A stretch of DNA of 64,000 nt from Xestospongia bergquistia (taxonomy: Eukaryota > Porifera > Demospongiae > Haplosclerida > Petrosiidae): the NCBI GenBank assembly GCA_963965975.1, contig OZ014412.1, forward strand, positions 13,096,849-13,160,848, written 5' to 3'. The translations under genes were made by a program, and so were the position numbers. This document shows positions 5,338 through 58,952 of this stretch, in pieces. Within the stretch, counting starts at the first letter, position 1, and every line of letters starts with the position of its first letter. The notes beneath the pieces were generated by a model. The model made no database searches. It saw only the letters and a list, made by a program, of their open reading frames with translations, and was not told the DNA's origin.

Positions 5338-5392
5338 ATTGTTAACAGCATCTAGTGATGCGCCAGCTTTTATAAGTATATCAGCTACATCA
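5338..5392 (-). pseudogene. Half ankyrin exon remnant
   Basis: The minus strand reads SDVADILIKAGASLDAVNN, the second half of an ankyrin repeat, then donor GTATGT. No first half (the TPLHxAA helix) precedes it, and neither nearby AG (exon of 55 or 68 bases) gives a phase compatible with the flanking phase-0 exons. It is present unchanged at 43621-43675 and 52300-52354, so the truncation predates the larger duplications. Confidence 0.6.
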
Positions 5393-8427: not shown

Positions 8428-8521
8428 CTTATTCGTGGCATTTGGGTTACCACAACTTTTGTAATAGGAATGATACAACCTCAATCTGTCCATATTGAGA
8501 TGCAGCAATCAGGGGTGTTGC
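8428..8521 (-). pseudogene. Ankyrin-repeat exon, frameshifted (gene A)
   Basis: Acceptor TTGCAG and donor GTAAGT bound a repeat starting ATPLIAASQYGQIEVVSFLL. Copies B and C have a 93-base, 31-codon exon here. Copy A has 94 bases: an extra base in the CAAAAGTTGTGG stretch (CAAAGTGGTGG in B) makes it read LQKLW and then a stop. A substitution accompanies the indel, which argues against a simple homopolymer sequencing error. Confidence 0.85.
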
Positions 8522-8640
8522 CTGCAACGAGTAGATGATAAGTTTTATTATTAACAATGATATTTTCAAAATGTAGATATTGTATAATTAATTAGTGAAA
8601 TTTATTTTAAAGAGTACAGACAATATAACAATAGTATCCA

Positions 8641-9064
8641 TACTACATTAGTTGCTCTTTTGAGAGACCACCCTCATATCCAACAAATAGTGCTTTCCCA
8701 AAAGAGGTTGTCTTCCACTAGAGGTGGGTGGGATAATGGGTTGGATCAATTTTTAAACATGAGAATAATGTATGTACATGTATTTAGCTCTAATAATTCT
8801 ACTTGGTAGTTCTACTTTAGTTAACTACAGCTGCAAGTCATATGATATGCAATTATGTGCATGCATTGAATTCTACATGCAATTTACATTTCTAATGGTC
8901 TTAAAAATGCACAATGTTAGTAGTCTCTGGGCTCATAAAAGATATGGTCTTTGACTAGGGGTTGTTTTGTATTGCAATGCATCGGTACACACAAATTGTG
9001 GTCTCTCAAAAGAGGTGGTCTTGCATTGGAATGGTATCTCAAAAGAGGGAGTACTGTATTAGTA
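8641..9064. mobile_element. Non-autonomous element with imperfect terminal inverted repeats
   Basis: The left end (TACTACATTAGTTGCTCTTT) and the right end are imperfect inverted repeats of about 30 bases centred on TCTCAAAAGAG. The interior repeats related GGTCTCTCAAAAGAGGTGGTC motifs several times. No transposase is present. It lies in an intron and was carried along in the duplications (46935-47359, 55614-56038). The small conserved open frame inside is a by-product of duplication. Confidence 0.55.
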
Positions 9065-9578
9065 TATTACTGAAATATTAGTTGTTGTTATAAACTATGT
9101 TGGTCATACTCAGGTAATGAATAATAATTATTAGTTAGTGTTATTACAAATGTATACTTCTCATTACATATCTATGAGCAACTTACAAGATATGGACCTA
9201 ACATGATAGGGAAGATATGTGATAATGTTACTCTACATCCTACTAATTACATTTAAAACATTTGTTAAAATATTTCTGTATTGAGATCCATACAACAATC
9301 ATTCATCTGGCTGTCTAATAGTTGATGACTCTTTAGCTGTTACTAAGGACTTATTATATGATATTTGATTAGTTGTTGCATTATAAATATTATTTGTTTT
9401 TTGTTGTGATCTTAAGTATTGGCTGTCCAGACAAAAATAAAGTCTATTATGTCTTTTACCATTTGATAGCTATCTAGCTAAGTCACTTCTAATATTATTT
9501 ACTATACAATTATAGTTAGTCTGTGGATCTGTTAACACTAGAAGTTTTGATGTACAATTATTGGATTGGATTTGTATA

Positions 9579-10440
9579 TTAAAGATCACTTTTATATATG
9601 AAATTACAAACTTAATCATTTTAACTGTGATAAAAAATTAATCAAATTATTAGTAGGCTACAATATTGCTATAATGAACAAGCAAAGAGGATTTTTTGTG
9701 CAAATATTATTATACAACTATAATAAAACACCTAATTATGATTCTCATACAAGATACTAAGTAGTGGATAGTTTCGAAGGGAGATGATTGTTTATATGAA
9801 GTAAAAAATATACAACATTGTGAAACATTAATCAAATCATTAGTAACCTAACAAGATATGGAAAACATGTGACTTTACTTTACATACTCTATAATTAAAT
9901 ACTTTTCAATTCATTTATTGAATTTATTGCAACTGCAGAAATTATTCCGAAAATTTTAACGCAAGTCTATTATGCTATTGTCTTTGCTGACTATACTGGT
10001 TATGAATGGATAAAAAATAAAAAAATAATTTTGATTCTGAAGTATAAATTTTGGAATACAGTAAACCTAAGAGCACTCTAAAAAATATTCATGATCTAGG
10101 CTTCTCTTTGGAATTTTAACAAACTACACATACTAGACCTTTATAAGGATTCTGGTAGATTATGAATTTATAAATAAAGTGAGTGTACGAATATGAGTGT
10201 GACATATTCTCTTGTAATGAATCTACAAATTGGCACATTAATAGTAATATTGCCATAATATAGTTCCTAGAAAGTTTGTAGAGTCAGGAAAAATGTGTTT
10301 GAGGAGCCATTGTATAATAAAACTTCATTGACAAAATATTATATAATAAATTAATGCAAACATGTTTGGTGGGCATAACCATTGCCACACCTACTTTTGC
10401 TGAAAATCAAAGTAAGCAACAAAGTGCTTATGTCATAGTA
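9579..10440. other. Block present in copy A only
   Basis: Copies B and C join sequence equivalent to 9578 directly to sequence equivalent to about 10441, so about 862 bases are missing there (or were inserted here). The junction shares only a few bases (TA/AC), as in a deletion by end joining. The block is intronic and AT-rich, with no coding sequence seen. Confidence 0.8.
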
Positions 10441-10516
10441 CACACTTAGTCTGAACTATTGCTTCACACACAGTGTCTTATAATTTAATCGTACATCATA
10501 AGAGTTAGCTAATTAC

Positions 10517-10615
10517 CATATCTGGATTATGATAGTTTACATCTGCTCCTTGCTCAATAAATAACTTGACTTGTTTGATGTCTCCAGCACTAGCTACCAA
10601 ATACAGCTGTTCATT
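10517..10615 (-). CDS. First ankyrin-repeat exon (gene A)
   Basis: A 99-base phase-0 exon (acceptor ATAATAG, donor GTAATT) encodes NEQLYLVASAGDIKQVKLF followed by IEQGADVNYHNPDM. This capping-type repeat opens an ankyrin array. The same exon in copies B and C differs at one codon: GCA (Ala) here, CCA (Pro) in B and TCA (Ser) in C. Confidence 0.85.
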
Positions 10616-10798
10616 CTATTATAAATACAGACACGTATCATCTACTGTAGTATAGTGGTTATTCAGATGAGCCTTGTAAATAAAGAGCATTTTTAGAAAG
10701 ATATTCTGCCTATACAATATAATACTTTTATATGACTTTAGTCAATATCAGAGATATATAGATATGATGACATAGTATTAGAAAGATGATAGACTTAC

Positions 10799-10865
10799 AA
10801 GCTGTTTTTGACACATCTTTAAAGTGTATTTCCTTTAGCTGGCCACTATCTCTATTTTCAAGTCC
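10799..10865 (-). CDS. Possible small exon upstream of the ankyrin array
   Basis: The minus strand has AG, then an open 67-base stretch reading GLENRDSGQLKEIHFKDVSK, then donor GTAAGT. It is retained in copies B (48230-48296) and C (56909-56975). The length is not a multiple of three, so including it would break the phase-0 chain of the neighbouring exons. It may be an alternative exon or chance. Confidence 0.25.
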
Positions 10866-12159
10866 CTAGGTACTAGTAATACGGGAAGAAAATCAACTAG
10901 CTAGATAGTGGTAAGTTCTACATTCAAATACGGAACTCTACTAACTAAATCAACTGTAATCAAATTATAGTAAGATGAGAGTATACTGTCTGTCAACTAA
11001 CTAAAAAATGATTGGTTGATTTAAGCAGTACACATATGATTCATGAAACTGAAAGTAAACATCATGCTTTAGTTATTGCTATAGGATCAACTGTTTATTT
11101 AAACAATGAAGTCCATAATGTATTAGTAATCAAAAGAACCCAGGTAAAAGAAAAGCATACTTTAAAATATAATTTGTAAACTATATTCCAAAATATTCAT
11201 TATATATATATATATATATAATCCAAAATTAGCAGTTTGTAAAAAAGGTATGTGAGCATATTTTTTACACAATGTTACATAATTTGATAGTGTATATAAA
11301 TAACGTACTAACATTATCTTGTCAGATGTCTCTTAGAAATACCATGATGATGAATTGAAATTTGAAAAAGAATTATTTTTGAAAAATCAATAACGATACT
11401 TTATTATCTTACTAATAAGTAAGGTAGTGGTATTTCACAATATGTAGAGAATCGAGGGGTTGTGATCATAATAAAGGACGTATACAACTCACTGGTGTAT
11501 TGAACAATTCAAAGTTAGTTTATATATTACAATTAGCTACTTCCAATTTACATACTCACAGACATTGTAGATGAGGGTATTTTGAACCCAAGCAATCAAT
11601 TTAATTATATATGTATATATAATGCTAGATGTCCATATTTCGTCAGAACTTTTTTAGTTCTACTAATTACAATACTCTCATCAGTTTCTTACTAGTAATA
11701 CTATTATCATATAATATCAATGGAAAAGACATACTTTATAGGAAACAATGAAATCATTAGGTGACCGGTGTTGAGTTAATACTGGAATTAACTTTGGTAC
11801 TTGTTATAAGTGAAGACGCAATGATGTTGATCATGATATTATATGTTCAACAAGACAAAGATATAAAAGAAACAAAATTATTAGGTTAACAATAATTATT
11901 AATAATAGAATAATGAAATATCTCACAACACAAAAGGATCTATGCAATAAGTGTAATGTACACTAACTAATTTTAATGATTTTAGTAACTATTCAGTTTC
12001 ATATGACTTCCTTTTTTAAGAGTATCAAATCATCTTTAGTATATTATAGGACTATACTAGATGTAGATCATCACATGTTGATGTAGAATAAATTACTATT
12101 ATAATAGAAGAGAATAAATAGTAAAAACAATTATTTAATAAGTGTTTCTATTAACTTAC
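10866..12159. other. Intron sequence with a TA microsatellite
   Basis: Non-coding AT-rich sequence. A perfect (TA)n run of about 20 bases lies at 11200-11220 and recurs in copies B and C. Homology to copy B ends at 12037; past that point copy A is unrelated to B. Confidence 0.7.
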
Positions 12160-34644: not shown

Positions 34645-34907
34645 TTATGAAGGTAGCTCAGCAATTTTGTCAGCAATATGATGTAACTTCATATCCTTAA
34701 TTGCCATAATCAAAGCTTCTTTAGTAGCTCTGCCCTCATTTAACCATATTATGGTAATCATTTTTCTTCGACCTGTTTCTGATTGATAAAACGTGTCTTC
34801 TTTAATTGCCTTCAAAACAGAATCTCGAAAGCCTAGGTATATACCTAGTGTGTACCAATCAACTATATCATCAACAGCCTGTAAGACAGCATAGAGATGT
34901 GTCTTAT
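34645..34907 (-). CDS. Death-domain terminal exon
   Basis: Acceptor CTTATTAG, 87 codons, stop TAA at 34645-34647. It starts after a split GAT codon with KTHLYAVLQAVDDIVDW and has the Death-fold pattern: W, then LG.YLGF, VLKAIKED, GRRKMITIWLNEG, ATKEALIMAI, HHIADKIAEL. The six-helix hydrophobic spacing and the WL...T...L signature between helices 4 and 5 fit the family. This exon is fully open, unlike the GTPase exon, so it decayed least or is still selected. Confidence 0.85.
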
Positions 34908-34955
34908 CTAATAAGAAAATAACATATAACTGTATAGTCTTATTTTATTGCATAC

Positions 34956-35015
34956 CTAAAGGTCCATCTGGTATATTGGTGTGGAAAGGAACTATGGCAG
35001 GTAATGGGGTATAAT
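34956..35015 (-). CDS. Linker exon before the Death domain
   Basis: Sixty bases, phase 1 at both ends (acceptor AATGAAG, donor GTATGC), reading YTPLPAIVPFHTNIPDGPL after a split aspartate codon. It joins the 454-base exon to the Death exon in frame. Proline-rich linker, no domain. Confidence 0.75.
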
Positions 35016-35075
35016 CTTCATTAAAATAATATTAATCATTGATTTCTACACATAATATGCTTTTTGTAAACTAAC

Positions 35076-35529
35076 CAATGAGCCAACATCTTTGTCTTTC
35101 ATTTGTTATCTGTAATGTTGGCAAGTTCTTTTCAATACTACATCTAATGGATGGAGGATCATCTTCGTATGATATTAACACAGGATGTAAGTTGTATCCT
35201 GTTTTCTGATGTTGTCGTTGACAGGACACTGTTACTTTAGCCTTTAAAGCTCCTTCTTCATATGCCAGTATATCACTACATGTTGATATGGCTTCACAGA
35301 TGACTTGACAAAGTTGAAAGCAATTTTTGGTAAGGCTGGTATAATACACTTCAATCCAATAGAATCTGTCGACTAGAAGAACTGAGCCAAATAGATCTAC
35401 TGAGGCATCAAGTAAAATAGCGTAACGGAGCTGTGTGGAAAATGTAGATAAACGTGTTTCACGACTAATATAAAATTGAGGCTTCTCTTCTCAAATAACA
35501 AGAGCAACTACTACAGCAGGAAATACACC
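35076..35529 (-). pseudogene. C-terminal region exon after COR, with internal TGA
   Basis: Acceptor TGTTTAG, donor GTTAGT, 454 bases, phase 0 to 1. It begins GVFPAVVVALVI, then TGA at 35491-35493, then EEKPQFYISRETRLSTFS and on to QLRYAILLDASVDLFG, WIEVYYTSL, CEAISTCSDILAYEEG and RQRCWLIG. The homologous stretch at 62630-62869 reads GVFPAIVVALLNRKTPP where this one has the stop, so the TGA replaces a coding codon. The region appears to be a beta-rich domain that follows COR in this family; I cannot name it. Confidence 0.75.
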
Positions 35530-35619
35530 CTAAACAAAACAAACAGAAATATAATTGTAAGTGTTACTAAAAGTAGAGTCACAACCTATTAACTAATCTA
35601 TAAGAGCGAATTTTAATAC

Positions 35620-37262
35620 CTGAGGAACAACTTTAGTCTCAAAAGCAATTATCATTGGATCACATGACATTCTAAATACACTTGTATCTTCTTCAGTGAT
35701 ATGACATGGTGGTAACACAACTGGCATAAAGTATTGCTTTAGGGTTTCGTTTGAAAAAAGAGGAGCGAGGATACAGAGATATCTAAGCAATTTAAGAAAC
35801 TTCTCTTCTGAAAACAGAGGAGGAACAAAAGGAAGGCAGAGCTTACCAAGTAAAAAACTATCAAATACTCCATCTTCACGAGAAATCTGCTTAGCATCTA
35901 CTTCTAAGCACTGATTTACTGGTAAAATATCTTCTAGCAATTCAACAAATGAAAATCGTATAAGAGCTGAAAGCATATCAGGAAGATATTGAGGATTAGT
36001 AAAAATAACATAAGGAAGCACATTTGGAAAAAAGAGGAAAAAGGCCATGGAATGAAGATATATGATGGATTTCAATACATCATTACGATCCATTCCTAGA
36101 TTAACTCCAATACTTCAACAGGAGTCAAATGATATCATGCCGTGTTCCTCTTGTGACGCTTCCTCTGTTAGACGCATTTCCAACATGTAATAACGCACTG
36201 GTATTAGTACAGTTATACCAATGTGCTTCTGACATGACATGATAATTATGCCTACGGAAATACGAAGATATCTTTTTGCAATTCCACCAACAAAGGTTGT
36301 CATCTGGAAATATAAGCTCTGCAGGATTATCCTTATAGAAAATAAAATAATCTTAAAATTCATGAAGGGTTGAGAGAATCTGCTCATTCTTTTCATGCAA
36401 TATCTCTAATATCTTTTATTTTGAGCCTTTCATCTTGTCATAACAGGTGCCAATTATCATAAAAAATGGGAAGTGAGGCTTATCAGAAAGTTTTTCTGTT
36501 AATTTTGCGCAAATAATGTTCATTGTATTACCATGAACAAATGCTCGTGATACATCGGCAAATTGTGGCTGACCACCACTATCAACAATATTTATCCACG
36601 TGGCTTTATGGAGATCTTCTGATTTTTTTCGTTTAGTAAGGAGTTCTACCATATCAGTAAAATAGTGGTCAGTATCAGGCTGTCGTGACAAACGTGTTAA
36701 TTCCTTAAAAGCAGTAGTTTTGTTGTTTTCTGGACTGTTAGATGTGTGGTGTAGTATATATAGTCCTGACTGTACTGGTTGATGATCTTGTAAAGAAGCC
36801 ACCTCAGCTGGAACAGGTGATTCATTAGCAGATAAATCACATTCTTCTAGAGCAAAGTTCTGTTCTGTTGACTCCAGTAAAATATTTTCGTCTAAATGTG
36901 ACATTGGGTCAACTGATAAAATGCTGTCATTAGCATTTTCTGATATTTGAGGATTGTTTTTCACAGACTCATTTTCAATGGCAATAATGGCATCTGAGAG
37001 CATCTTCAATAGGTCAAGGCCTGTAACTGTTAACCAAATCTTGCCATCATTACATTCTGCCACTCTTTCTATTGCACGAACTGGTCTCATTGCTAAAACT
37101 GTACTATCATGAACTTTAAGTGGAGGCCATTTGAATAATAAGGACTTGAATGGTGTTTTTCCAACACTAGGAGGCCCATTAGAACCAATCGCATGTTAGT
37201 AAGATGAACAACACCTTTGTGTAGACCACATTTTAAACGATTGAGTGAAACCAGCCATAAGT
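35620..37262 (-). pseudogene. Roc GTPase plus COR domain exon, multiply broken
   Basis: A single 1,643-base exon (acceptor ATGTAG, donor GTATTA), phase 1 to 0. It opens LWLVSLNRLKCGLHKGVV and NMRLVLM, then the P-loop GPPSVGKTPFKS with one base missing at the first glycine codon (near 37175). Switch II is WINIVDSGGQPQF and a G4-like IIGTCYDK follows. TAA stops at 36416-36418 and 36353-36355 interrupt HEKNEQILSTLHEF. The frame returns near IIIMSCQKHIG, COR sequence (MLEMRLTEEASQEEHGMIS) follows, a local double shift lies near 36110, and MDRNDVLKSIIYLH to FETKVVPQ completes COR. The frame at the start and end of the exon is the same, so the indels cancel. Confidence 0.85.
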
Positions 37263-39874: not shown

Positions 39875-39973
39875 TTTATCATCAGCATCTAGATTAGCTC
39901 CTCTGTTAATCAAAAGTGCAGCAACTTCAGTCTCTCCCTTACTTGCAGCATGATGCAAAGGAGTTCTCTTGTC
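39875..39973 (-). CDS. Ankyrin-repeat exon (gene B, outside the tandem unit)
   Basis: An intact 99-base phase-0 exon (acceptor TTTTAG, donor GTTAGT) encoding DKRTPLHHAASKGETEVAA, then LLINRGANLDADDK. The copy A equivalent (1590-1687) has lost one base. It joins in phase to the exon at 37548-37611. Confidence 0.92.
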
Positions 39974-42900
39974 CTAAAATATATAGACACCTTTATTAAC
40001 ACAATACAAAGTAATACATGTACATAGGCTGTACTGGTACACTATGTCCAAATGTTGGCTATTCCTAATGTATCAGAGAAAAACTGTTAAATACTGTTAT
40101 GTATGGTACAAGTTATATACAACCAGTTTATTTGTATAATACATTTGCACAAAAAATAATTGTATAATAATGCTCTACATTGATATAACATTAATCTGGA
40201 GTATACAGAGACAACACTATCATGACTATCAACACTATCATGCAGATTGGAGAATGGCAGACAGGAGGGAACATACTTTGACAAGCAATAAAAGCATATT
40301 AAAATGTGTCCAGTGTATTTTTTACAGTACAATATAATACAAGTTGTACTGTACATAAGACAGATATTATAATTAGAAGGAGCATGGTGTAAAAGCAACA
40401 GGAACACATGTAATATTGTTTGTGACAATACCGAGTCAACTATTTTGTAAGTGATGTACTCTATAATTCATTGTTGTTAATTGTTATTAAAATATTATGA
40501 TTAATATGGGCAATAGTTTATCATGATCCACTTCATATATCATTTTATAAGCTTATAAAAGTGACGAACCTTCTGAAAATTTTACAAGCAAATTTTATCT
40601 CTCAATGTAAAATGTCAGAGCACATTTCTCTAAGTAATAAATAGTATCCTGTAATATTTACTTTGTTGCTAATGTGAGCTTCAAACAAATTAAGTAACAG
40701 AATGGAATAAACATATTGAAGGTACTGATCAGTTACTGCTAGAGTTATATTAAATATAGCCATGCTGTTTTTAATGTGTTGATATGAAGTTTTTTGAAAG
40801 TGGGAGACAATTTCATTCTAGCTTATAGACTAATTGATGACATTGGGTCAGTCAAATCCATACCCAATGCACAACTTTAAACACAACAGGACTTTGCTAC
40901 ACACTAAAACAATATTTTTTATAATCTCTGATATTTTAATATTAATGCTGCTGTTATTATGAAACACAAATAATTGCAATGTTCCAAACAAGTGTCAAAC
41001 CACAGGGTGTAGTCTCTATATATGATATCACACCATGAGAAAATAGTGCATTTAGTTTTATATACTAACACAATTAAACAATTGTCACATATATCCAGTC
41101 ATATTATAAGTGTTAATGATTATAGAGAGGTGTGCTTAGAGTATTAAATATATATAAATTTTGTTAAGGAATGCTCTTGAATAGACATGATTCAAAATCA
41201 TTGTATCATCTTATTCAGTCTACAATATCAACTCCATAATATCCATTACTATAATGTAAACTGTCAACTCCAGTGACCAGTATTAGCATCCAGTGACGAT
41301 ATTATGGTTGTATTCCAGCAATATTTGAGGTAATTAGAGTATAGGTAAGACTAATATGATGTCAACAGAACACATGAATAGGTCATTGATATTTCATAGT
41401 ATTATTATAAAGAAAATATTCTATATGAAGCCTTATTTCTTGGTTCTTTGTTAATGACAAGAAATCCTGTTTGTAACCTGTTCTAGAACAGCTTAATATA
41501 TTTGTTAATTATTCATAGTTGATATAGTATAGTATTAATCTTTGTGATATTAACAGGTTATATTATATAAACATTTCAAATTTGGGGATTAAGACTCAAT
41601 TATAACATACACCTACATCAGACATGATACTGACTACTGATATAATGCATCATAATTATCTTTATTTGATGACAATAATCAAGGTGGTACATTATTCATT
41701 TGGAACCATTGATCAATACATATATACTGAAACAGTGCCATGTATTAGAATATCTAGAAGCCTTGTTACATTATATTCTTGTGTAATTGGCATATTTTTG
41801 TGTTAAAGAGTGATTTTAATGAAAACATTGTAAGACTGCTTAGTGTTGTCTTGTTGACTTCACCCACATAGAAATGTAGATTACTTTGGATAACATCCTT
41901 GTATTATGACTGCTCATCAGACAAAAATGAATGAAGAATTAATGAAACAATGATAGATAGTAGCAGCTGGCTATGAATTACATGACACAAAAATTAATGT
42001 TTGTTACTGAAGTTTTGAATGTTAGTTAACTCAATTTTGTGAGTAGTAGCAATTATTTAAATAAATGTTATTGTCTTGTTAGAACAAAAATGTACCATGC
42101 TTGTCATAATATTATGTTAAATGTGATGAGGATATATACATTGTGTTTTGTTTAGTTGGCATAATAATTAATGTTAGAACTTTATTATGTGCAATTTAAT
42201 TTTATCTTTCATTTTTAGTGTAGACTAAATCTTGTTCTGCTACAAATACTTGACTAGAGCTATGTTCAAAACTGCATTGTCTGAGAATGACTGATAGTAT
42301 TTAATACTAAAAATATAGGCAAAGAAACAGATAATGAGACACTTCAAGCATGATCAATTATATCAATTGTTGTAGAACTAATGATTAATGTTAATAAATT
42401 CACTGGTTGCTATATGTGTCAGTCACTCTTCACTTTTAATCGTCACATACAACAATATAACTTAACAAAGCAAGCCGAAATGCAGACATAAAAATATAGT
42501 TAACATATGACCCAAAGCCACTATTAATACTGTGTGTCCGGCAGCAAAAATGCTTACAAGACTTCATTCAAATGAATGTGAAACAACTTAATGATTCATA
42601 TTGAGCAGGTATTTTATTGGAAAGGTATGCATTATCATCAATTTTTTACACACAGGTAGACAATAGAAGCTGGAGATTAATCATACACTTTTGGTTAGAG
42701 TTTATGCTATATCTTTCAAAGTAAATCCTAGAATATTCTCACACATGGATAATAAGGTTTTGGAATGCAATCGAATCGCTTGTTTAAAATAAGCATCCAT
42801 TTCATTGATTTTTAGAATTCACTAACATGTAAAAGAATTTGCCTTCTTTACTGATATTAAAATTTATCTTATACAAAGTTGTATCAATGCTAACTAAATG

Positions 42901-43064
42901 TACCAATGATTTAGTGTCATGTATGTTATACACTCAAAAGTATTATTATTAATATTATTGTATATATGGGTATGATACCTTGCAACGATGAGGTGCTAAA
43001 TCATAATTTTGTGTACATGACAACATTATATGTGATGTATGAAGTAAATTCATATGGCACTCAC

Positions 43065-43108
43065 TTTATCAACAGCATCTAGATTTGCTCTGCTTTTAAT
43101 CAAGAGTG
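43065..43108 (-). pseudogene. Half ankyrin exon remnant (copy B)
   Basis: Equivalent of 4774-4817: C-terminal half of an ankyrin repeat, with donor GTGAGT, first half missing. One residue differs from copy A (GCT GTT in place of GCT TTT). Confidence 0.65.
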
Positions 43109-43620
43109 CTACAATACAAAGTAACACATGTACACAGACTGTACTAGTACACTATGACAAAATGTTGGCTAATATTAATGTATCACAAAATAACTGTTAA
43201 TTACTCTGTATGTAGTATGGTACATGTTTTCTACAACCAGGTTGCTTGTATAATACATTATTGTACAGTGTAACTAAATAAACAAGCTATGACTTCTACT
43301 GTTGACTTAAAATTGCAAATAGGATAAATTTGTACCATAGAAAATGTAGACACAAAATCCATTATATCTCCAGTTCATAAAAGGTTTTTCACAATAAACT
43401 CAATAGTACTAATTTTCAAAGTCTCTACAATAAGATATGAGGCAGTATGCATGTTATTATATCAACAGAGAAACTTTAAAAAAATTTTGCAACTCATTAT
43501 AACTAAGAATCAATTATTTTTACCATAAAGGGCTACTTAAATGCAGTAATAACAACATTACATACAAAATAAGCCTTGTATATAAATGATAAGATGATGT
43601 TTAATAATGGAGATACATAC

Positions 43621-43675
43621 ATTGTTAACAGCATCTAGTGATGCGCCAGCTTTTATAAGTATATCAGCTACATCA
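43621..43675 (-). pseudogene. Half ankyrin exon remnant (copy B)
   Basis: Equivalent of 5338-5392 with the same half repeat and donor GTATGT. Confidence 0.6.
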
Positions 43676-44844
43676 CTGACAGACAGTACTTAGTTTCTTT
43701 ACAGTATTACTGATCATTGTCTTTGATATAGGTATGACTAAATGAATTAGTGAAAGTTACTGTAATGATCCATCCTCAGTACTTTCAAACATTGTGATAA
43801 TTTTCTTCTATACTTTAAGACAATGCTAGTTTACATTATTGTTGCATGTGTTAATTTGTTCAATTAATACTGTTGTTCTTATGAAACACAAACATAAATT
43901 GCAATATTCAAAGAAGTGTTAAACCAGTGTTAGCTCTATATATGAAATGACATTGTGATGAAATAATACATATATACAAAGTCAATATGACAAATGTCTA
44001 ACATTCTAGTCATATTATCAGTAAGGATTAAAGGAGGGATGTGGTCATAGTATTAAATAAAATATTATATTGAATTTATGTGTGAAGGATAGCCTCTTAT
44101 TAGACTTGACTCATGATTATTGTGGCGTCTTCTCATTTCTCATAATATAAATTGCCAACTCCAGTCAACAGCATTAATACTCTATGAAGATAATTTAGTT
44201 GTAGTCCTGTAATACTGAGGTAATTAGTGTATAACTAGAACTAATGTAATATCAGTGGAACAAGCGAATATTCTTTATTCAAAATATAAGATATAAATGA
44301 ATTCTGCTCATTAGTGCATTAGTGTTATATTAATGTAAATACTAAGTGATTATGCTATTTTTTAACATTCATTCTAAGCACTTGCAAGCCTTCACATTTT
44401 GAGTATCGTATTCAAATAATAAAGTATGAACAATAGCCAAATATTATTTTCTAATGTTTATAAAGTAAAGTCATCTTTGTTGCTGGTTGATTTAATTAAA
44501 TTGATATTGCTAACCTACCATTGCCAGTTAGTAATAACTGTATTGTTTTAATATCTAGCCACTAAAACTTTCAAAGTTGCAGAGCAACAATTTTTATTAG
44601 GCAGTCTATGTGATTACATAAATATACCTATATTTAAGAAAATGTTGACATAATACTCTTAAGAGACTGTATGAGTAATGATAATTTTAATTGTAGAAAA
44701 GTAGTTGTAGTTGTGATCGATTGTTGTTTAAGTAAATGTAGTGGTAATGTTGAAATGATCAAATAATTGTAATTTAAGCTGATAAAATTGAGACTGTAAT
44801 GGTGACATCACTAGTATTTAGTATAGTAAATATTTAATACTAAC

Positions 44845-44943
44845 CTCATCAACAGCATCTAGATTAGCTCCATTATTAATCAAAAGTACAGCAACTTCAG
44901 TTTCTCCATATTGAGCAGCATAATGCAAAGGAGTCCAGTTGAT
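44845..44943 (-). CDS. Ankyrin-repeat exon 3 (copy B)
   Basis: An intact 99-base phase-0 exon, identical in protein to 6562-6660 (INWTPLHYAAQYGETEVAV). Acceptor CTTCAG, donor GTTAGT. Confidence 0.92.
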
Positions 44944-46715
44944 CTGAAGACATTGGCACATTAACAACACAATACAAAGTAATACATGTACATAGACTGT
45001 ACTGGTAAAGTATGTTGACTAATGCTTTAAATTGTATCATAGTATAACTAATTATTAAAAAAATGTAGGTGTAATATGATGATATAAGTTAGATATTACT
45101 GATTTGTTATCATAGATTTAGGTGTACCATACAGTAACATGATGATGATAACAGTTAATTATATAATAAACATTAGACATTTAACATGAGCTCTACTAGT
45201 GTTGTTTTACTTGAAGTAAAAGTAATTTTAGTACTTCATTTTTATGTTTTTTTCCAGTCAAAATAAAGGTACTAATACTGTATTAAAATGGTTTTAATTC
45301 AATTTACTAAAACTGTCAGTGTGAATCAGTTATTTATTTCTGTGGTGCCTTAGTAGGTAGTGATTTGGGGTCTGTATTTATCTAACCCTGTAGCAATTAA
45401 AGTATTTGTCCTCTACTGTAGTTGTAGTGGCTTATATATTGACAGGGTGCTGTATCAAAAAATGCTATACAGAATTGAAGACAAAAATATTTAGCACATT
45501 ATTGTATGCCTTGTGTATGACTATAATGAATTGTTAATCTGGTCTCTGTGTCTAAGTTACTTTATATACATGTGCAAATTAAAGTATAGACTATAATTAT
45601 ACATAAAACTGGCTTATCTCCAGAATGTGCTAAAAGGTAGTACAAATATTATATGTTTCTTGGCTAAGAAATTTGGATTTTGTCGGAATACTATATTGAA
45701 GATATACTATTGTATAATATATAATTGCATAGCTTTGTTAAGGTTACAATATCTCACTTTAGATCTGTCACTGACTTGACTAAGTTTAATAAAGAAAAGT
45801 ATGTCAGTTCTAGAATGTACTTAGTTACTGACAGTAATAATACTTTTCATTAAAAAAAATGCTTAAATGATAACTTCTATTGATTCTTAGTAAATGAAGC
45901 TAGGCAACAAGATCATTATATACACTGTCAGCATGACAGTGAACTAACTTTACACTTTGCTATTGAAGAGCTAAATGTTGTCATTCAACAATATCAATTA
46001 CTATTATACTACAATTTAGTGACACTTTAAAACTTGTGCATTAGTGTTAATAGCTTTATTGTAATTGTTTATATCTGTTAATTGCTTTGTCATACAAAGC
46101 AGTCCTTATATTGTATTTCTACTACAGTTTTCTGCTTATATCTATGTAATTGTAACTATTTTGTATCCTTTATAATATTAACATATTGGATATCAAAAAA
46201 AAGAGAATTAAATATAAAACTTGTATAATAACCTTTGTAACAAGTATTTTTTTATTGTTATTAAGAGCATATTGATTGTGTGTGTAACTAATTGACACTT
46301 AAACATACCTAAAGGCAATGTCCCTAACCAACCAAACATTTTTTCAACTAAGCAGTCTTGTACAATCTAAGCTGTCTATAGCAATGCTTTTACCATTGAA
46401 AGATTATTAGGATTATCTTTTTAGTTAAAAACTTTTGAATATGCAAAGTACAGCTTAAATGAGTGCTAGTCATTTAGTACCATCAAGCAATATAATATAT
46501 ATTGATATCATATAACATCCTCCATATTACAAGTACTATATACAGTTGACTTGTTAAGAAATTAAATAGACAATTCCACCTTTGACTACTAATCAGAAAT
46601 ATCAATATTTGTGTGTGACCTTTCACTACTCTCAATATAACCTCCAATATAACCTAAGTATAGTGTATACATTATGTGCATTTATAAACATTATTTTTTG
46701 TATCTGAACACTCAC

Positions 46716-46808
46716 CTTATTCGTGGCATTTGGGTTACCACCACTTTGTAATAGGAACGATACAACCTCAATCTGTCCATATTGAGATGCAGCAATCAGG
46801 GGTGTTGC
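46716..46808 (-). CDS. Ankyrin-repeat exon 2 (copy B)
   Basis: An intact 93-base phase-0 exon reading ATPLIAASQYGQIEVVSFLL then QSGGNPNATNK. Acceptor TTGCAG, donor GTGAGT (GTAAGT in copy A). It is two codons shorter than the usual 33-residue repeat. Confidence 0.92.
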
Positions 46809-46934
46809 CTGCAACTATATAAGAGTAGATGATAAGTTTTATTATTAACAATGATATTTTCAAAATGTAGATATTGTATAATTAATTAGTGAAATTTATT
46901 TTAAAGAGTACAGACAATATAACAATAGTATCCA

Positions 46935-47359
46935 TACTACATTAGTTGCTCTTTTGAGAGACCACCCTCATATCCAACAAATAGTGCTTTCCCAAAAGAG
47001 GTTGTCTTCCACTAGAGGTGGGTGGGATAATGGGTTGGATCAATTTTTAAACATGAGAAAAATGTATGTACATGTATTTAGCTCTAATAATTCTACTTGG
47101 TAGTTCTACTTTAGTTAACTACAGCTGCAAGTCATATGATATGCAATTATGTGCATGCATTGAATTCTACATGCAATTTACACTTCTAATGGTCTTAAAA
47201 ATGCACGATGTTAGTAGTCTCTGGGCTCATAAAAGATATGGTCTTTGACTAGGTGTTGTTTTGTATTGCAATGAATCGGTACACACAAATTGTGGTCTCT
47301 CAAAAGAGGTGGTCTTGCATTGGAGTGGTATCTCAAAAGAGGGAGTACTGTATTAGTAT
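46935..47359. mobile_element. Non-autonomous element (copy B)
   Basis: Carried-along copy of the element at 8641-9064, with the same terminal inverted repeats. Confidence 0.55.
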
Positions 47360-47947
47360 ATTACTGAAATATTAGTTGTTGTTATAAACTATGTTGGTCA
47401 TACTCAGGTAATGAATAATAATAATTAGTTAGTGTTATTACAAATGTATACTTCTCATTACATATCTATGAGCAACTTACAAGATATGGACCTAACATGA
47501 TAGGGAAGATATGTGATAATGTTACTCTACATCCTTACTAATTACATGTAAAACATTTGTTAAAATATTTCTGTATTGAGATCAATACAACAATCATTCA
47601 TCTGGCTGTCTAATAGTTGATGACTCTTTAGCTGTTACTAAGGACTTATTATATGATATTTGATTAGTTGTTGCATTATAGATATTATTTGTTTTTTGTT
47701 GTGATCTTAAGTATTGGCTGTCTAGACAAAAATAAAGTCTATTATGTCCTTTATCATTTGATAGCTATCTAGCTAAGTCACTTCTAATATTATTTACTAT
47801 ACAATTATAGTTAGTCCGTGGATCTGTTAACACTAGAAGTTTTGATGTACAATTATTGGATTGGATTTGTATACACTTAGTCTTAACTATTGCTTCACAC
47901 ACAGTGTCTTATAATTTAATCGTACATCATAAGAGTTAGCTAATTAC

Positions 47948-48046
47948 CATGTCTGGATTATGATAGTTTACATCTGGTCCTTGCTCAATAAATAACTTGA
48001 CTTGTTTGATGTCTCCAGCACTAGCTACCAAATACAGCTGTTCATT
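47948..48046 (-). CDS. Ankyrin-repeat exon 1 (copy B)
   Basis: A 99-base phase-0 exon reading NEQLYLVASAGDIKQVKLF, with GPDVNYHNPDM at the end: the usual GADVN alanine is proline here (CCA at 47975-47977). Acceptor ATAATAG, donor GTAATT. Confidence 0.9.
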
Positions 48047-49516
48047 CTATTATAAATACAGACACGTATCATCTACTGTAGTATAGTGGTTATTCAGATG
48101 AGCCTTGTAAATAAAGAGCATTTTTAGAAAGATATTCTGTCTATACAATATAATACTTTTATATGACTTTAGTCAATATCAGAGATATATAGATATGATG
48201 ACATAGTATTAGAAAGATGATAGACTTACAAGCTGTTTTTGATACATCTTTAAAGTGTATTTCCTTTAGCTGGCCACTATCTCTATTTTCAAGTCCCTTG
48301 GTACTAGTAATACGGGAAGAAAGTCAACTAGCTAGATAGTGGTAAGTTCTACATTCACATACGGAACTCTACCAACTAAATCAACTGTAATCAAATTATA
48401 GTAAGATGAGAGTATACTGTCTGTCAACTAACTAAAAAATGATTGGTTGATTTAAGCAGTACACATATGATTCATGAAACTGAAAGTAAACATCATGCTT
48501 TAGTTATTGCTATCGAATCAACTGTTTATTTAAACAATGAAGTCCATAATGTATTAGTAATCAAAAGAACCCAGGTAAAAGAAAAGCATACGTTAAAATA
48601 TAATTTGTAAACTATATTCCAAAATATTCATTATATATATATATATATATATATAATCCAAAATTAGCAGTTTGTAAAAAAGGTATGTGAGCATATTTTT
48701 TACACAATGTTACATAATTTGATAGTGTATATAAATAATGTACTAACATTATCTTGTCAGATGTCTCTTAGAAATACCATGATGATGAATTGAAATTTGA
48801 AAAAGAATTATTTTTGGAAAATCAATAACGATTCTTTATTATCTTACTAATAAGTAAGGTAGTGGTATTTCACAATATGTAGAGAATCGAGGGGTTGTGA
48901 TCATAATAAAGGACGTATACAACTCACTGGTGTATTGAACAATTCAAAGTTAGTTTATATATTACAATTAGCTACTTCCAATTTACATACTCACAGACAT
49001 TGTAGATGAGGGTATTTCGAACCCAAGCAATCAATTTAATTATATATGTATATATAATACTAGATGTCCATATTTCGTCAGAACCTTTTTTAGTTCTACT
49101 AATTACAATACTCTCATCAGTTTCTTACTAGTAATACTATTATCATATAATATCAATGGAATAGACATACTTTATAGGAGACAATGAAATCATTAGGTGA
49201 CCGATGTTGAGTTAATACTGGAATTAACTTTGGTACTTGTTATAAGTGAAGACGCAATGATGTTGATCATGATATCTTATGTTCAACAGGACAAAAATAT
49301 AAAAGAAACAAAATTATTAGGTTAACAATATTAATAATAGAATAATGAAATATCTCACAACACAAAAGGACCTATGCAATAAGTGTAATGTACACTAACT
49401 AATTTTAATGATTTTAGTAACTATTCAGTTTCATATGACTTCCTTTTTTAAGAGTATCAAATCATCTTTCTCTTTTATTTAATTTGTAAGACTCATCTCC
49501 ATTAGACTTCACTTAC

Positions 49517-49555
49517 CATATCATCATCATCGTCATGAATAAAGAGACTCAGCTG
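49517..49555 (-). CDS. Small exon before the ankyrin array (copy B)
   Basis: A 39-base exon with acceptor TTTGGCAG and donor GTAAGT, phase 0, reading QLSLFIHDDDDDM. It lies just beyond the point where copies A and B diverge, and replaces the two exons copy A has there. The aspartate run comes from a GAT/GAC repeat. Confidence 0.6.
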
Positions 49556-50273
49556 CTGCCAAATTAATCATATATTGAGAGATGTTCCTTAATGAACTAA
49601 TGATATTGATATATTGTACATAGTCAAATATAATAGTGACTAGGACACATTATAACAAGTTAGTTTATAATATAATTATCTGTTACAATTTGTTACTCCA
49701 TAATATAGCCTGTTTAAAATCATGTGTTCATTCATACTATGAAGATTATACCAAGACAGCGCATCTTTTTGTGTATTGTATGTCATTTGTATTATCAGAT
49801 CTAGTGATATACTTGAAGTTTTCATATCTTCTGCTTGTTTCTTATTTTCTTCTATTAGTTGATATTTTATTCCAAACATCAATACATAGAGACATTGAAT
49901 TTGGTTCTTATTAGAATGATTGTTATTGTTATAGAGTTGATTAGTATAAAGTTGCATATTTATATATATTTTACTGGTCATTTGTAATTATAATTCAGAA
50001 AATGGATACTCCTATGTGAAATTAATATATTAGGTTCTAATGTTAATAGTTTAGGTCCTAGAATATAATAATAATTTCTCATTTCTCAGTCCTTTTACTG
50101 TAGAAATAGCCACTACTACTTATATAGTGTATTCTTATAACCTCCATTTTGTATGCAATATAGTTACATGGACATACTGTTAATGTTAATAATGACTACT
50201 TTAACATTAGAAGTGCATATCCTCTAAGATTTTGTTTTAGGTTGTATTATGTTCCTTTGAATAACTAAGTAGA
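49556..50273. other. Intron or flank up to the tandem junction
   Basis: AT-rich. Two overlapping open frames on opposite strands (about 92 and 101 codons) are repeated in copy C only because the DNA is repeated. Neither shows a domain. Confidence 0.5.
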
Positions 50274-53200
50274 CTCAATTATAACATACACCTACATCAG
50301 ACATGATACTGACTACTGATATAATGCATCATAATTATCTTTATTTGATGACAATAATCAAGGTGGTACATTATTCATTTGGAACCATTGATCAATACAT
50401 ATATACTGAAACAGTGCCATGTATTAGAATATCTAGAAGCCTTGTTACATTATATTCTTGTGTAATTGGCATATTTTTGTGTTAAAGAGTGATTTTAATG
50501 AAAACATTGTAAGACTGCTTAGTGTTGTCTTGTTGACTTCACCCACATAGAAATGTAGATTACTTTGGATAACATCCTTGTATTATGACTGCTCATCAGA
50601 CAAAAATGAATGAAGAATTAATGAAACAATGATAGATAGTAGCAGCTGGCTATGAATTACATGACACAAAAATTAATGTTTGTTACTGAAGTTTTGAATG
50701 TTAGTTAACTCAATTTTGTGAGTAGTAGCAATTATTTAAATAAATGTTATTGTCTTGTTAGAACAAAAATGTACCATGCTTGTCATAATATTATGTTAAA
50801 TGTGATGAGGATATATACATTGTGTTTTGTTTAGTTGGCATAATAATTAATGTTAGAACTTTATTATGTGCAATTTAATTTTATCTTTCATTTTTAGTGT
50901 AGACTAAATCTTGTTCTGCTACAAATACTTGACTAGAGCTATGTTCAAAACTGCATTGTCTGAGAATGACTGATAGTATTTAATACTAAAAATATAGGCA
51001 AAGAAACAGATAATGAGACACTTCAAGCATGATCAATTATATCAATTGTTGTAGAACTAATGATTAATGTTAATAAATTCACTGGTTGCTATATGTGTCA
51101 GTCACTCTTCACTTTTAATCGTCACATACAACAATATAACTTAACAAAGCAAGCCGAAATGCAGACATAAAAATATAGTTAACATATGACCCAAAGCCAC
51201 TATTAATACTGTGTGTCCGGCAGCAAAAATGCTTACAAGACTTCATTCAAATGAATGTGAAACAACTTAATGATTCATATTGAGCAGGTATTTTATTGGA
51301 AAGGTATGCATTATCATCAATTTTTTACACACAGGTAGACAATAGAAGCTGGAGATTAATCATACACTTTTGGTTAGAGTTTATGCTATATCTTTCAAAG
51401 TAAATCCTAGAATATTCTCACACATGGATAATAAGGTTTTGGAATGCAATCGAATCGCTTGTTTAAAATAAGCATCCATTTCATTGATTTTTAGAATTCA
51501 CTAACATGTAAAAGAATTTGCCTTCTTTACTGATATTAAAATTTATCTTATACAAAGTTGTATCAATGCTAACTAAATGTACCAATGATTTAGTGTCATG
51601 TATGTTATACACTCAAAAGTATTATTATTAATATTATTGTATATATGGGTATGATACCTTGCAACGATGAGGTGCTAAATCATAATTTTGTGTACATGAC
51701 AACATTATATGTGATGTATGAAGTAAATTCATATGGCACTCACTTTATCAACAGCATCTAGATTTGCTCTGCTTTTAATCAAGAGTGCTACAATACAAAG
51801 TAACACATGTACACAGACTGTACTAGTACACTATGACAAAATGTTGGCTAATATTAATGTATCACAAAATAACTGTTAATTACTCTGTATGTAGTATGGT
51901 ACATGTTTTCTACAACCAGGTTGCTTGTATAATACATTATTGTACAGTGTAACTAAATAAACAAGCTATGACTTCTACTGTTGACTTAAAATTGCAAATA
52001 GGATAAATTTGTACCATAGAAAATGTAGACACAAAATCCATTATATCTCCAGTTCATAAAAGGTTTTTCACAATAAACTCAATAGTACTAATTTTCAAAG
52101 TCTCTACAATAAGATATGAGGCAGTATGCATGTTATTATATCAACAGAGAAACTTTAAAAAAATTTTGCAACTCATTATAACTAAGAATCAATTATTTTT
52201 ACCATAAAGGGCTACTTAAATGCAGTAATAACAACATTACATACAAAATAAGCCTTGTATATAAATGATAAGATGATGTTTAATAATGGAGATACATACA
52301 TTGTTAACAGCATCTAGTGATGCGCCAGCTTTTATAAGTATATCAGCTACATCACTGACAGACAGTACTTAGTTTCTTTACAGTATTACTGATCATTGTC
52401 TTTGATATAGGTATGACTAAATGAATTAGTGAAAGTTACTGTAATGATCCATCCTCAGTACTTTCAAACATTGTGATAATTTTCTTCTATACTTTAAGAC
52501 AATGCTAGTTTACATTATTGTTGCATGTGTTAATTTGTTCAATTAATACTGTTGTTCTTATGAAACACAAACATAAATTGCAATATTCAAAGAAGTGTTA
52601 AACCAGTGTTAGCTCTATATATGAAATGACATTGTGATGAAATAATACATATATACAAAGTCAATATGACAAATGTCTAACATTCTAGTCATATTATCAG
52701 TAAGGATTAAAGGAGGGATGTGGTCATAGTATTAAATAAAATATTATATTGAATTTATGTGTGAAGGATAGCCTCTTATTAGACTTGACTCATGATTATT
52801 GTGGCGTCTTCTCATTTCTCATAATATAAATTGCCAACTCCAGTCAACAGCATTAATACTCTATGAAGATAATTTAGTTGTAGTCCTGTAATACTGAGGT
52901 AATTAGTGTATAACTAGAACTAATGTAATATCAGTGGAACAAGCGAATATTCTTTATTCAAAATATAAGATATAAATGAATTCTGCTCATTAGTGCATTA
53001 GTGTTATATTAATGTAAATACTAAGTGATTATGCTATTTTTTAACATTCATTCTAAGCACTTGCAAGCCTTCACATTTTGAGTATCGTATTCAAATAATA
53101 AAGTATGAACAATAGCCAAATATTATTTTCTAATGTTTATAAAGTAAAGTCATCTTTGTTGCTGGTTGATTTAATTAAATTGATATTGCTAACCTACCAT

Positions 53201-53523
53201 TGCCAGTTAGTAATAACTGTATTGTTTTAATATCTAGCCACTAAAACTTTCAAAGTTGCAGAGCAACAATTTTTATTAGGCAGTCTATGTGATTACATAA
53301 ATATACCTATATTTAAGAAAATGTTGACATAATACTCTTAAGAGACTGTATGAGTAATGATAATTTTAATTGTAGAAAAGTAGTTGTAGTTGTGATCGAT
53401 TGTTGTTTAAGTAAATGTAGTGGTAATGTTGAAATGATCAAATAATTGTAATTTAAGCTGATAAAATTGAGACTGTAATGGTGACATCACTAGTATTTAG
53501 TATAGTAAATATTTAATACTAAC

Positions 53524-53622
53524 CTCATCAACAGCATCTAGATTAGCTCCATTATTAATCAAAAGTACAGCAACTTCAGTTTCTCCATATTGAGCAGCAT
53601 AATGCAAAGGAGTCCAGTTGAT
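53524..53622 (-). CDS. Ankyrin-repeat exon 3 (copy C)
   Basis: Identical to 44845-44943 by eye: 99 bases, phase 0, INWTPLHYAAQYG start. Confidence 0.92.
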
Positions 53623-55394
53623 CTGAAGACATTGGCACATTAACAACACAATACAAAGTAATACATGTACATAGACTGTACTGGTAAAGTATGTTGACTA
53701 ATGCTTTAAATTGTATCATAGTATAACTAATTATTAAAAAAATGTAGGTGTAATATGATGATATAAGTTAGATATTACTGATTTGTTATCATAGATTTAG
53801 GTGTACCATACAGTAACATGATGATGATAACAGTTAATTATATAATAAACATTAGACATTTAACATGAGCTCTACTAGTGTTGTTTTACTTGAAGTAAAA
53901 GTAATTTTAGTACTTCATTTTTATGTTTTTTTCCAGTCAAAATAAAGGTACTAATACTGTATTAAAATGGTTTTAATTCAATTTACTAAAACTGTCAGTG
54001 TGAATCAGTTATTTATTTCTGTGGTGCCTTAGTAGGTAGTGATTTGGGGTCTGTATTTATCTAACCCTGTAGCAATTAAAGTATTTGTCCTCTACTGTAG
54101 TTGTAGTGGCTTATATATTGACAGGGTGCTGTATCAAAAAATGCTATACAGAATTGAAGACAAAAATATTTAGCACATTATTGTATGCCTTGTGTATGAC
54201 TATAATGAATTGTTAATCTGGTCTCTGTGTCTAAGTTACTTTATATACATGTGCAAATTAAAGTATAGACTATAATTATACATAAAACTGGCTTATCTCC
54301 AGAATGTGCTAAAAGGTAGTACAAATATTATATGTTTCTTGGCTAAGAAATTTGGATTTTGTCGGAATACTATATTGAAGATATACTATTGTATAATATA
54401 TAATTGCATAGCTTTGTTAAGGTTACAATATCTCACTTTAGATCTGTCACTGACTTGACTAAGTTTAATAAAGAAAAGTATGTCAGTTCTAGAATGTACT
54501 TAGTTACTGACAGTAATAATACTTTTCATTAAAAAAATGCTTAAATGATAACTTCTATTGATTCTTAGTAAATGAAGCTAGGCAACAAGATCATTATATA
54601 CACTGTCAGCATGACAGTGAACTAACTTTACACTTTGCTATTGAAGAGCTAAATGTTGTCATTCAACAATATCAATTACTATTATACTACAATTTAGTGA
54701 CACTTTAAAACTTGTGCATTAGTGTTAATAGCTTTATTGTAATTGTTTATATCTGTTAATTGCTTTGTCATACAAAGCAGTCCTTATATTGTATTTCTAC
54801 TACAGTTTTCTGCTTATATCTATGTAATTGTAACTATTTTGTATCCTTTATAATATTAACATATTGGATATCAAAAAAAAAGAGAATTAAATATAAAACT
54901 TGTATAATAACCTTTGTAACAAGTATTTTTTTATTGTTATTAAGAGCATATTGATTGTGTGTGTAACTAATTGACACTTAAACATACCTAAAGGCAATGT
55001 CCCTAACCAACCAAACATTTTTTCAACTAAGCAGTCTTGTACAATCTAAGCTGTCTATAGCAATGCTTTTACCATTGAAAGATTATTAGGATTATCTTTT
55101 TAGTTAAAAACTTTTGAATATGCAAAGTACAGCTTAAATGAGTGCTAGTCATTTAGTACCATCAAGCAATATAATATATATTGATATCATATAACATCCT
55201 CCATATTACAAGTACTATATACAGTTGACTTGTTAAGAAATTAAATAGACAATTCCACCTTTGACTACTAATCAGAAATATCAATATTTGTGTGTGACCT
55301 TTCACTACTCTCAATATAACCTCCAATATAACCTAAGTATAGTGTATACATTATGTGCATTTATAAACATTATTTTTTGTATCTGAACACTCAC

Positions 55395-55487
55395 CTTATT
55401 CGTGGCATTTGGGTTACCACCACTTTGTAATAGGAACGATACAACCTCAATCTGTCCATATTGAGATGCAGCAATCAGGGGTGTTGC
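55395..55487 (-). CDS. Ankyrin-repeat exon 2 (copy C)
   Basis: Identical to 46716-46808 by eye: 93 bases, phase 0. Confidence 0.92.
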
Positions 55488-56626
55488 CTGCAACTATATA
55501 AGAGTAGATGATAAGTTTTATTATTAACAATGATATTTTCAAAATGTAGATATTGTATAATTAATTAGTGAAATTTATTTTAAAGAGTACAGACAATATA
55601 ACAATAGTATCCATACTACATTAGTTGCTCTTTTGAGAGACCACCCTCATATCCAACAAATAGTGCTTTCCCAAAAGAGGTTGTCTTCCACTAGAGGTTG
55701 GTGGGATAATGGGTTGGATCAATTTTTAAACATGAGAAAAATGTATGTACATGTATTTAGCTCTAATAATTCTACTTGGTAGTTCTACTTTAGTTAACTA
55801 CAGCTGCAAGTCATATGATATGCAATTATGTGCATGCATTGAATTCTACATGCAATTTACACTTCTAATGGTCTTAAAAATGCACGATGTTAGTAGTCTC
55901 TGGGCTCATAAAAGATATGGTCTTTGACTAGGTGTTGTTTTGTATTGCAATGAATCGGTACACACAAATTGTGGTCTCTCAAAAGAGGTGGTCTTGCATT
56001 GGAGTGGTATCTCAAAAGAGGGAGTACTGTATTAGTATATTACTGAAATATTAGTTGTTGTTATAAACTATGTTGGTCATACTCAGGTAATGAATAATAA
56101 TAATTAGTTAGTGTTATTACAAATGTATACTTCTCATTACATATCTATGAGCAACTTACAAGATATGGACCTAACATGATAGGGAAGATATGTGATAATG
56201 TTACTCTACATCCTTACTAATTACATGTAAAACATTTGTTAAAATATTTCTGTATTGAGATCAATACAACAATCATTCATCTGGCTGTCTAATAGTTGAT
56301 GACTCTTTAGCTGTTACTAAGGACTTATTATATGATATTTGATTAGTTGTTGCATTATAGATATTATTTGTTTTTTGTTGTGATCTTAAGTATTGGCTGT
56401 CTAGACAAAAATAAAGTCTATTATGTCCTTTACCATTTGATAGCTATCTAGCTAAGTCACTTCTAATATTATTTACTATACAATTATAGTTAGTCCGTGG
56501 ATCTGTTAACACTAGAAGTTTTGATGTACAATTATTGGATTGGATTTGTATACACTTAGTCTTAACTATTGCTTCACACACAGTGTCTTATAATTTAATC
56601 GTACATCATAAGAGTTAGCTAATTAC

Positions 56627-56725
56627 CATGTCTGGATTATGATAGTTTACATCTGATCCTTGCTCAATAAATAACTTGACTTGTTTGATGTCTCCAGCAC
56701 TAGCTACCAAATACAGCTGTTCATT
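56627..56725 (-). CDS. Ankyrin-repeat exon 1 (copy C)
   Basis: As 47948-48046 except that the GADVN alanine codon is TCA (serine). It is the only coding difference seen between the tandem units. Confidence 0.9.
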
Positions 56726-58195
56726 CTATTATAAATACAGACACGTATCATCTACTGTAGTATAGTGGTTATTCAGATGAGCCTTGTAAATAAAGAGCAT
56801 TTTTAGAAAGATATTCTGTCTATACAATATAATACTTTTATATGACTTTAGTCAATATCAGAGATATATAGATATGATGACATAGTATTAGAAAGATGAT
56901 AGACTTACAAGCTGTTTTTGATACATCTTTAAAGTGTATTTCCTTTAGCTGGCCACTATCTCTATTTTCAAGTCCCTTGGTACTAGTAATACGGGAAGAA
57001 AGTCAACTAGCTAGATAGTGGTAAGTTCTACATTCACATACGGAACTCTACCAACTAAATCAACTGTAATCAAATTATAGTAAGATGAGAGTATACTGTC
57101 TGTCAACTAACTAAAAAATGATTGGTTGATTTAAGCAGTACACATATGATTCATGAAACTGAAAGTAAACATCATGCTTTAGTTATTGCTATCGAATCAA
57201 CTGTTTATTTAAACAATGAAGTCCATAATGTATTAGTAATCAAAAGAACCCAGGTAAAAGAAAAGCATACGTTAAAATATAATTTGTAAACTATATTCCA
57301 AAATATTCATTATATATATATATATATATATATAATCCAAAATTGGCAGTTTGTAAAAAAGGTATGTGAGCATATTTTTTACACAATGTTACATAATTTG
57401 ATAGTGTATATAAATAATGTACTAACATTATCTTGTCAGATGTCTCTTAGAAATACCATGATGATGAATTGAAATTTGAAAAAGAATTATTTTTGGAAAA
57501 TCAATAACGATTCTTTATTATCTTACTAATAAGTAAGGTAGTGGTATTTCACAATATGTAGAGAATCGAGGGGTTGTGATCATAATAAAGGACGTATACA
57601 ACTCACTGGTGTATTGAACAATTCAAAGTTAGTTTATATATTACAATTAGCTACTTCCAATTTACATACTCACAGACATTGTAGATGAGGGTATTTCGAA
57701 CCCAAGCAATCAATTTAATTATATATGTATATATAATACTAGATGTCCATATTTCGTCAGAACCTTTTTTAGTTCTACTAATTACAATACTCTCATCAGT
57801 TTCTTACTAGTAATACTATTATCATATAATATCAATGGAATAGACATACTTTATAGGAGACAATGAAATCATTAGGTGACCGATGTTGAGTTAATACTGG
57901 AATTAACTTTGGTACTTGTTATAAGTGAAGACGCAATGATGTTGATCATGATATCTTATGTTCAACAGGACAAAAATATAAAAGAAACAAAATTATTAGG
58001 TTAACAATATTAATAATAGAATAATGAAATATCTCACAACACAAAAGGACCTATGCAATAAGTGTAATGTACACTAACTAATTTTAATGATTTTAGTAAC
58101 TATTCAGTTTCATATGACTTCCTTTTTTAAGAGTATCAAATCATCTTTCTCTTTTATTTAATTTGTAAGACTCATCTCCATTAGACTTCACTTAC

Positions 58196-58234
58196 CATAT
58201 CATCATCATCGTCATGAATAAAGAGACTCAGCTG
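58196..58234 (-). CDS. Small exon before the ankyrin array (copy C)
   Basis: Same 39-base phase-0 exon as 49517-49555. In a transcript from the right it would lead the first ankyrin block, and its twin would lie between the two blocks as an in-frame linker. Confidence 0.6.
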
Positions 58235-58952
58235 CTGCCAAATTAATCATATATTGAGAGATGTTCCTTAATGAACTAATGATATTGATATATTGTACAT
58301 AGTCAAATATAATAGTGACTAGGACACATTATAACAAGTTAGTTTATAATATAATTATCTGTTACAATTTGTTACTCCATAATATAGCCTGTTTAAAATC
58401 ATGTGTTCATTCATACTATGAAGATTATACCAAGACAGCGCATCTTTTTGTGTATTGTATGTCATTTGTATTATCAGATCTAGTGATATACTTGAAGTTT
58501 TCATATCTTCTGCTTGTTTCTTATTTTCTTCTATTAGTTGATATTTTATTCCAAACATCAATACATAGAGACATTGAATTTGGTTCTTATTAGAATGATT
58601 GTTATTGTTATAGAGTTGATTAGTATAAAGTTGCATATTTATATATATTTTACTGGTCATTTGTAATTATAATTCAGAAAATGGATACTCCTATGTGAAA
58701 TTAATATATTAGGTTCTAATGTTAATAGTTTAGGTCCTAGAATATAATAATAATTTCTCATTTCTCAGTCCTTTTACTGTAGAAATAGCCACTACTACTT
58801 ATATAGTGTATTCTTATAACCTCCATTTTGTATGCAATATAGTTACATGGACATACTGTTAATGTTAATAATGACTACTTTAACATTAGAAGTGCATATC
58901 CTCTAAGATTTTGTTTTAGGTTGTATTATGTTCCTTTGAATAACTAAGTAGA

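Follow-up and report, generated by a model that had tools for sequence, protein, structure and literature searches.

Within a tandem array of ankyrin/Roc-like/Death genes in Xestospongia bergquistia, one segment likely underwent a single recent head-to-tail duplication of 8,679 bp. The window analysed here is a stretch of 64,000 bp (C2:13096849-13160848) in an assembly of 146 Mb and 21 contigs. Within it, two adjacent units, U1 and U2, lie head to tail on the same strand and meet at a unique junction. Offset comparison and BLAST of 41592-50273 against 50271-58952 give 99.931% identity over 8,683 columns, with four mismatches and two compensating one-base gaps. The substitutions (U1 base first) are located at 47020/55699 (G/T), 47754/56433 (T/C), 47977/56656 (G/A), and 48666/57345 (A/G). 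The remaining two of the six differences are one-base indels in A-runs, one at 45852 (longer in U1) and the other at 46194/54873 (longer in U2), and run length is a frequent type of sequencing error. These comparisons confirm the original prediction of near-identical 8,679-bp tandem units that differ at about half a dozen positions and share AGA at all three boundaries, the motif being read at 41592, 50271, and 58950. As a chromosomal event, the duplication looks real but ordinary, and its value is that of a clean example. Because the paralogous segments around it keep both pre-duplication boundaries, the breakpoints, the junction homology, and the relative age can all be read from one assembly.

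The duplicated segment is part of a larger repeated structure. Repeated segments pack the surrounding 204 kb, and the 80 longest pairs, U1/U2 excepted, are 85–98% identical (with a floor of 85%). This is a tandem array of larger segments carrying ankyrin/Roc-like/Death genes, which the original prediction had overlooked. Segment A contains 97.4% (1-9578) and 97.8% (10438-12037) copies of parts of 38289-49469, and a large segmental repeat within the window pairs 1-12037 with 34329-49469 at ~97%. Segment D lies at window-relative positions 96224-109427, with its unduplicated unit copy ~36–44 kb beyond the right end of the window. Related segments are also found on C9, and Roc-like exon matches, many of them partial, occur on at least C1, C2, C5, C6, C9, C11, C12, and C14 (40 of 73 candidates scored). 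A single gene array thereby displays nested duplication at the scale of segments and at the scale of exons.

Other repeated sequences were observed alongside the array segments. Purine-skewed, internally repetitive blocks at 19224-22006 and 24184-28940 (units ~72–86% identical) recur in neighbouring segments. Dispersed repeats within the unit occupy ~46923-47355 and ~49058-50270, and matches to the latter extend past the right breakpoint. The former, with its U2 counterpart at 55602-56034, is matched on many contigs at 76–83%, and in two cases its ends match the opposite strand, as those of a small inverted-repeat element would. On the minus strand, an open frame of 105 aa (60813-61127) begins with a hydrophobic stretch, as judged by eye, and its copy in segment D (window-relative 110589-110903) is 95% identical.

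Features of the duplication and of the host gene copy, in window coordinates.
Feature	Position	Strand	Remark
Duplication unit U1	41592..50270		8,679 bp; 99.93% identity to U2
Duplication unit U2	50271..58949		8,679 bp; 99.93% identity to U1
Ancestral left breakpoint (AGA)	41592..41594		letters intact in the paralogs read
Novel junction (AGA)	50271..50273		AGA common to U1 right end and U2 left end
Ancestral right breakpoint (AGA)	58950..58952		letters intact in the paralogs read
Array segment A	1..12037		97–98% identical to parts of 38289-49469; unduplicated at the left boundary
Ankyrin exon E1	46716..46814	-	in U1; length of 99 nt from splice consensus; U2 copy (55395-55493) identical
Ankyrin exon E2	44845..44943	-	in U1; length of 99 nt from splice consensus; U2 copy (53524-53622) identical
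Truncated ankyrin exon	43621..43680	-	copy 52300-52359 in U2; truncated likewise in A and D
Truncated ankyrin exon	43065..43115	-	copy 51744-51794 in U2; truncation also in A; intact in D (window-relative 101105-101197)
Ankyrin exon E7	39875..39973	-	outside duplicated unit
Roc-like, COR-like, and Death exons of host copy	34648..37195	-	outside unit; Roc-COR frame-broken relative to paralog G

Several observations bear on the ancestral state. Firstly, the left boundary runs uninterrupted through at least nine paralogs at 91–97% identity (genome search, 40 of 120 candidates scored), and the right boundary through at least six close paralogs at 95–98% identity (40 of 139 candidates scored), with further matches spanning the right boundary at 68–76% identity. 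Where the letters of individual paralogs were read, the sequence is continuous with AGA in five of five at the left boundary and in four of four at the right. Secondly, segment D is unduplicated, carrying one unit copy between both boundaries. Finally, a 41-mer across the junction has a single occurrence in the assembly with up to three mismatches allowed, and over 241 bp around the junction the paralogs match one half only and none matches the whole. The undisturbed boundaries in the paralogs, together with the one-off junction, point to a single local duplication gained by this segment, the outgroups in this comparison being paralogs of the same genome rather than orthologs of related species.

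The sequence divergence between the units is far below that between array segments. U1 and U2 differ by four substitutions in 8,679 bp (0.046%), compared with 1.5–1.7% to segments A and D. With its left flank included, U1 shows 195 differences in 11,993 sites to D, 189 in 11,417 to A, and 347 in 7,998 to P, a more distant segment; for U2 with its right flank, the corresponding counts are 167 of 10,759, 119 of 7,841, and 208 of 5,124. Judged by paralog states, the derived base lies in U1 at 47754 (one of the four substitutions) and in U2 at 55699 and 56656 (two of the four), while the paralogs give no polarity for the fourth, 48666/57345. At one A-run, U1 is longer than U2 and the paralogs, and the other A-run has no polarity. 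The low divergence, the derived bases on both sides, and the unique junction support the earlier view that the duplication is young.

Gene conversion within the array could affect this estimate. All six differences fall within 2.8 kb (P ~0.016; P ~0.023 for the four substitutions alone), and in single 500-bp bins the divergence falls to 0.2%, from D at 58771 and from A at 52271, which makes exchange within the array plausible. Conversion may therefore make the pair look too young. A stronger version, in which the duplication is old and U1 and U2 have been held nearly identical by conversion, would also account for the clustering of differences, but it is very improbable: the junction is absent elsewhere in the genome, and both units are about equally far from A and D, so that conversion would have been needed almost only between U1 and U2.

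The near identity of the units had previously been read as either a young event or an assembly artefact, the latter meaning that the alleles of one single-copy segment ended up in tandem. A lightly heterozygous locus would indeed give near identity too, but several lines of evidence make the artefact unlikely. The join and the surrounding 204 kb contain zero N bases, and the units overlap by just 3 bp, so an overlap assembler would presumably have needed reads containing the junction. Besides U1/U2, BLAST yields no second alignment of at least 300 bp at 98.5% identity or more in 274 kb (204 kb of C2 and seven 10-kb loci), a listing that near-identical patches would escape if short or embedded in less similar alignments. 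A 601-bp probe (46000-46600) likewise has no further near-identical copy, its next best match in the assembly beyond U1 and U2 being 98%. Of the two readings, a true young duplication appears likelier than two alleles.

Homology between the breakpoints consists of AGA alone, with nothing beyond it. The best local score between the breakpoint surroundings (600 bp) is 25, which is equalled or exceeded in 148 of 200 shuffled pairs (shuffled mean 26.9), and junction homology of at least 3 bp arises in 7.5% of 200,000 random pairs placed 5–15 kb apart in the region. This chance level and the absence of longer homology argue against recombination between long repeats, without proving a microhomology route. 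The proposed 3-bp microhomology is thus real, and present at both breakpoints in the paralogs, while the mechanism attached to it is not proven. AGA is compatible with either end joining or template switching and says little about which one operated: the duplication may have come from staggered breaks that were joined, or from template switching during replication, and the sequence cannot tell these apart. Two other origins were considered and rejected, namely homologous recombination between repeats, as the breakpoints have no homology, and insertion of the unit as a mobile element, as the boundary sequences run uninterrupted in paralogs. Inverted repeats at the breakpoints are short or imperfect; a 20-nt, 80% pair at 58941-58960 and 59052-59071, noted without a chance comparison, has one arm crossing the right breakpoint.

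Each unit contains four ankyrin exons on the minus strand, two intact and two with older truncations. Splice consensus gives the intact exons a length of 99 nt and phase 0; the script used listed frame-keeping splice choices only, and for E1 and E7 it gives alternatives of 93–105 nt. None of the six differences between U1 and U2 falls in E1 or E2. Six-frame Pfam scans of U1 detect ankyrin families only, and the Ank match scores 35.1 bits against a cut-off of 21.1. The truncation at 43621-43680 is also found in A and D and therefore predates the duplication. If the exons are spliced, the duplication would add two ankyrin repeats in frame.

Left of the unit, the host gene has one more intact ankyrin exon, E7, together with the open frames of the Roc-like and COR-like regions and the Death exon. 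The suggestion that the duplication copied part of an ankyrin-Roc-COR-Death gene therefore needs qualification: the ankyrin exons are inside the unit and the Death domain exceeds its cut-off, but the Roc, COR, and Death regions are outside, Roc is below its cut-off, COR is unmatched, and the copy is probably a pseudogene. The Death match (cut-off 22.6) scores 24.5 bits in the window copy and, in paralog G, 34.2 bits; the Roc match (cut-off 27) scores 12.2 and 20.0 bits, respectively. COR has no Pfam match in either copy, and the COR-like frame is so named by resemblance. GTPase motifs were noted by eye. An AlphaFold2 model of the Roc-like exon, made without an alignment, has a mean pLDDT of 29.6, and sequence searches of the PDB returned best E values of 0.26 and 0.1. 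A comparison with stretches of two divergent paralogs, which possibly end too early, revealed no conserved exon upstream of E1 that would mark the 5' end of the host gene.

Paralog G (C2:13.60 Mb) retains an unbroken 591-aa Roc-like/COR-like frame (L027:1751-3526, minus strand), followed by a frame with the Death domain. Comparison with this frame reveals three stops and changes of frame in the window copy, and an intact reading frame is not found. Both of its frame-changing indels are common to the neighbouring segments A and D, and the Roc-COR region is broken in copies P and F too. The breaks relative to G, and their presence in the neighbours, suggest that the host copy is probably a pseudogene that was broken before the duplication, a call resting on one (G) of the two divergent paralogs compared; in the other, L029 on C1, the first 2,200 bases contain no minus-strand open frame of at least 90 aa. 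The possibility that, of all the genes in the array, just the window copy is intact was rejected: the search behind it was circular, with the copy's own open frames as the query, and the frame of the copy is broken relative to G.

The duplication would consequently have had little effect. It copies two ankyrin exons, in frame if splicing is as predicted, but in the gene copy that holds them the Roc-COR region had probably been broken beforehand. A more consequential reading is that the gene family gains ankyrin repeats through duplication of intron-bounded blocks of phase-0 ankyrin exons, and that this locus represents one such step, which would take the copy from three intact ankyrin exons to five with the frame kept. 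We regard this as a long shot, one that needs the copy to be transcribed despite its broken Roc-COR region, for example as a shorter ankyrin protein.

A known class of non-recurrent tandem duplications carries 0–5 bp of microhomology and arises via end joining or replication-based routes. The duplication described here resembles them in its head-to-tail copies, its short junction homology, and its breakpoints without long homology; its anatomy shows no difference from theirs, and the mechanistic subtype is not readable from 3 bp. At the level of the gene, DAPK-type proteins combine ankyrin, ROC, COR, and Death domains, and Pfam describes its Roc model as a DAPkinase domain. The host copy shares with these proteins ankyrin, Roc-like, and Death regions in the same order. 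Unlike them, it lacks a kinase match across the stretches that the Pfam scans covered, its Roc match is below the cut-off, and its COR region is unmatched.

Of the published systems considered, the sponge NLRs (PMC12909245) have no bearing on the locus. A closer parallel is offered by the brown algal ROCO genes (PMC11378527), which encode one repeat per exon with constant exon length and phase. The two systems differ in their parts: the algal genes, as described there, have LRRs on 72-bp phase-2 exons with LRR-ROC-COR as the sole structure, whereas the sponge locus has ankyrin repeats on 99-nt phase-0 exons, a Death domain, and an apparently broken copy. The authors of that study attribute repeat variation to exon shuffling and intragenic duplication (PMC11378527). 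The algal genes and the locus examined here are alike as Roc-type or, in the sponge, Roc-like genes with one protein-binding repeat per exon, constant in length and phase (PMC11378527).
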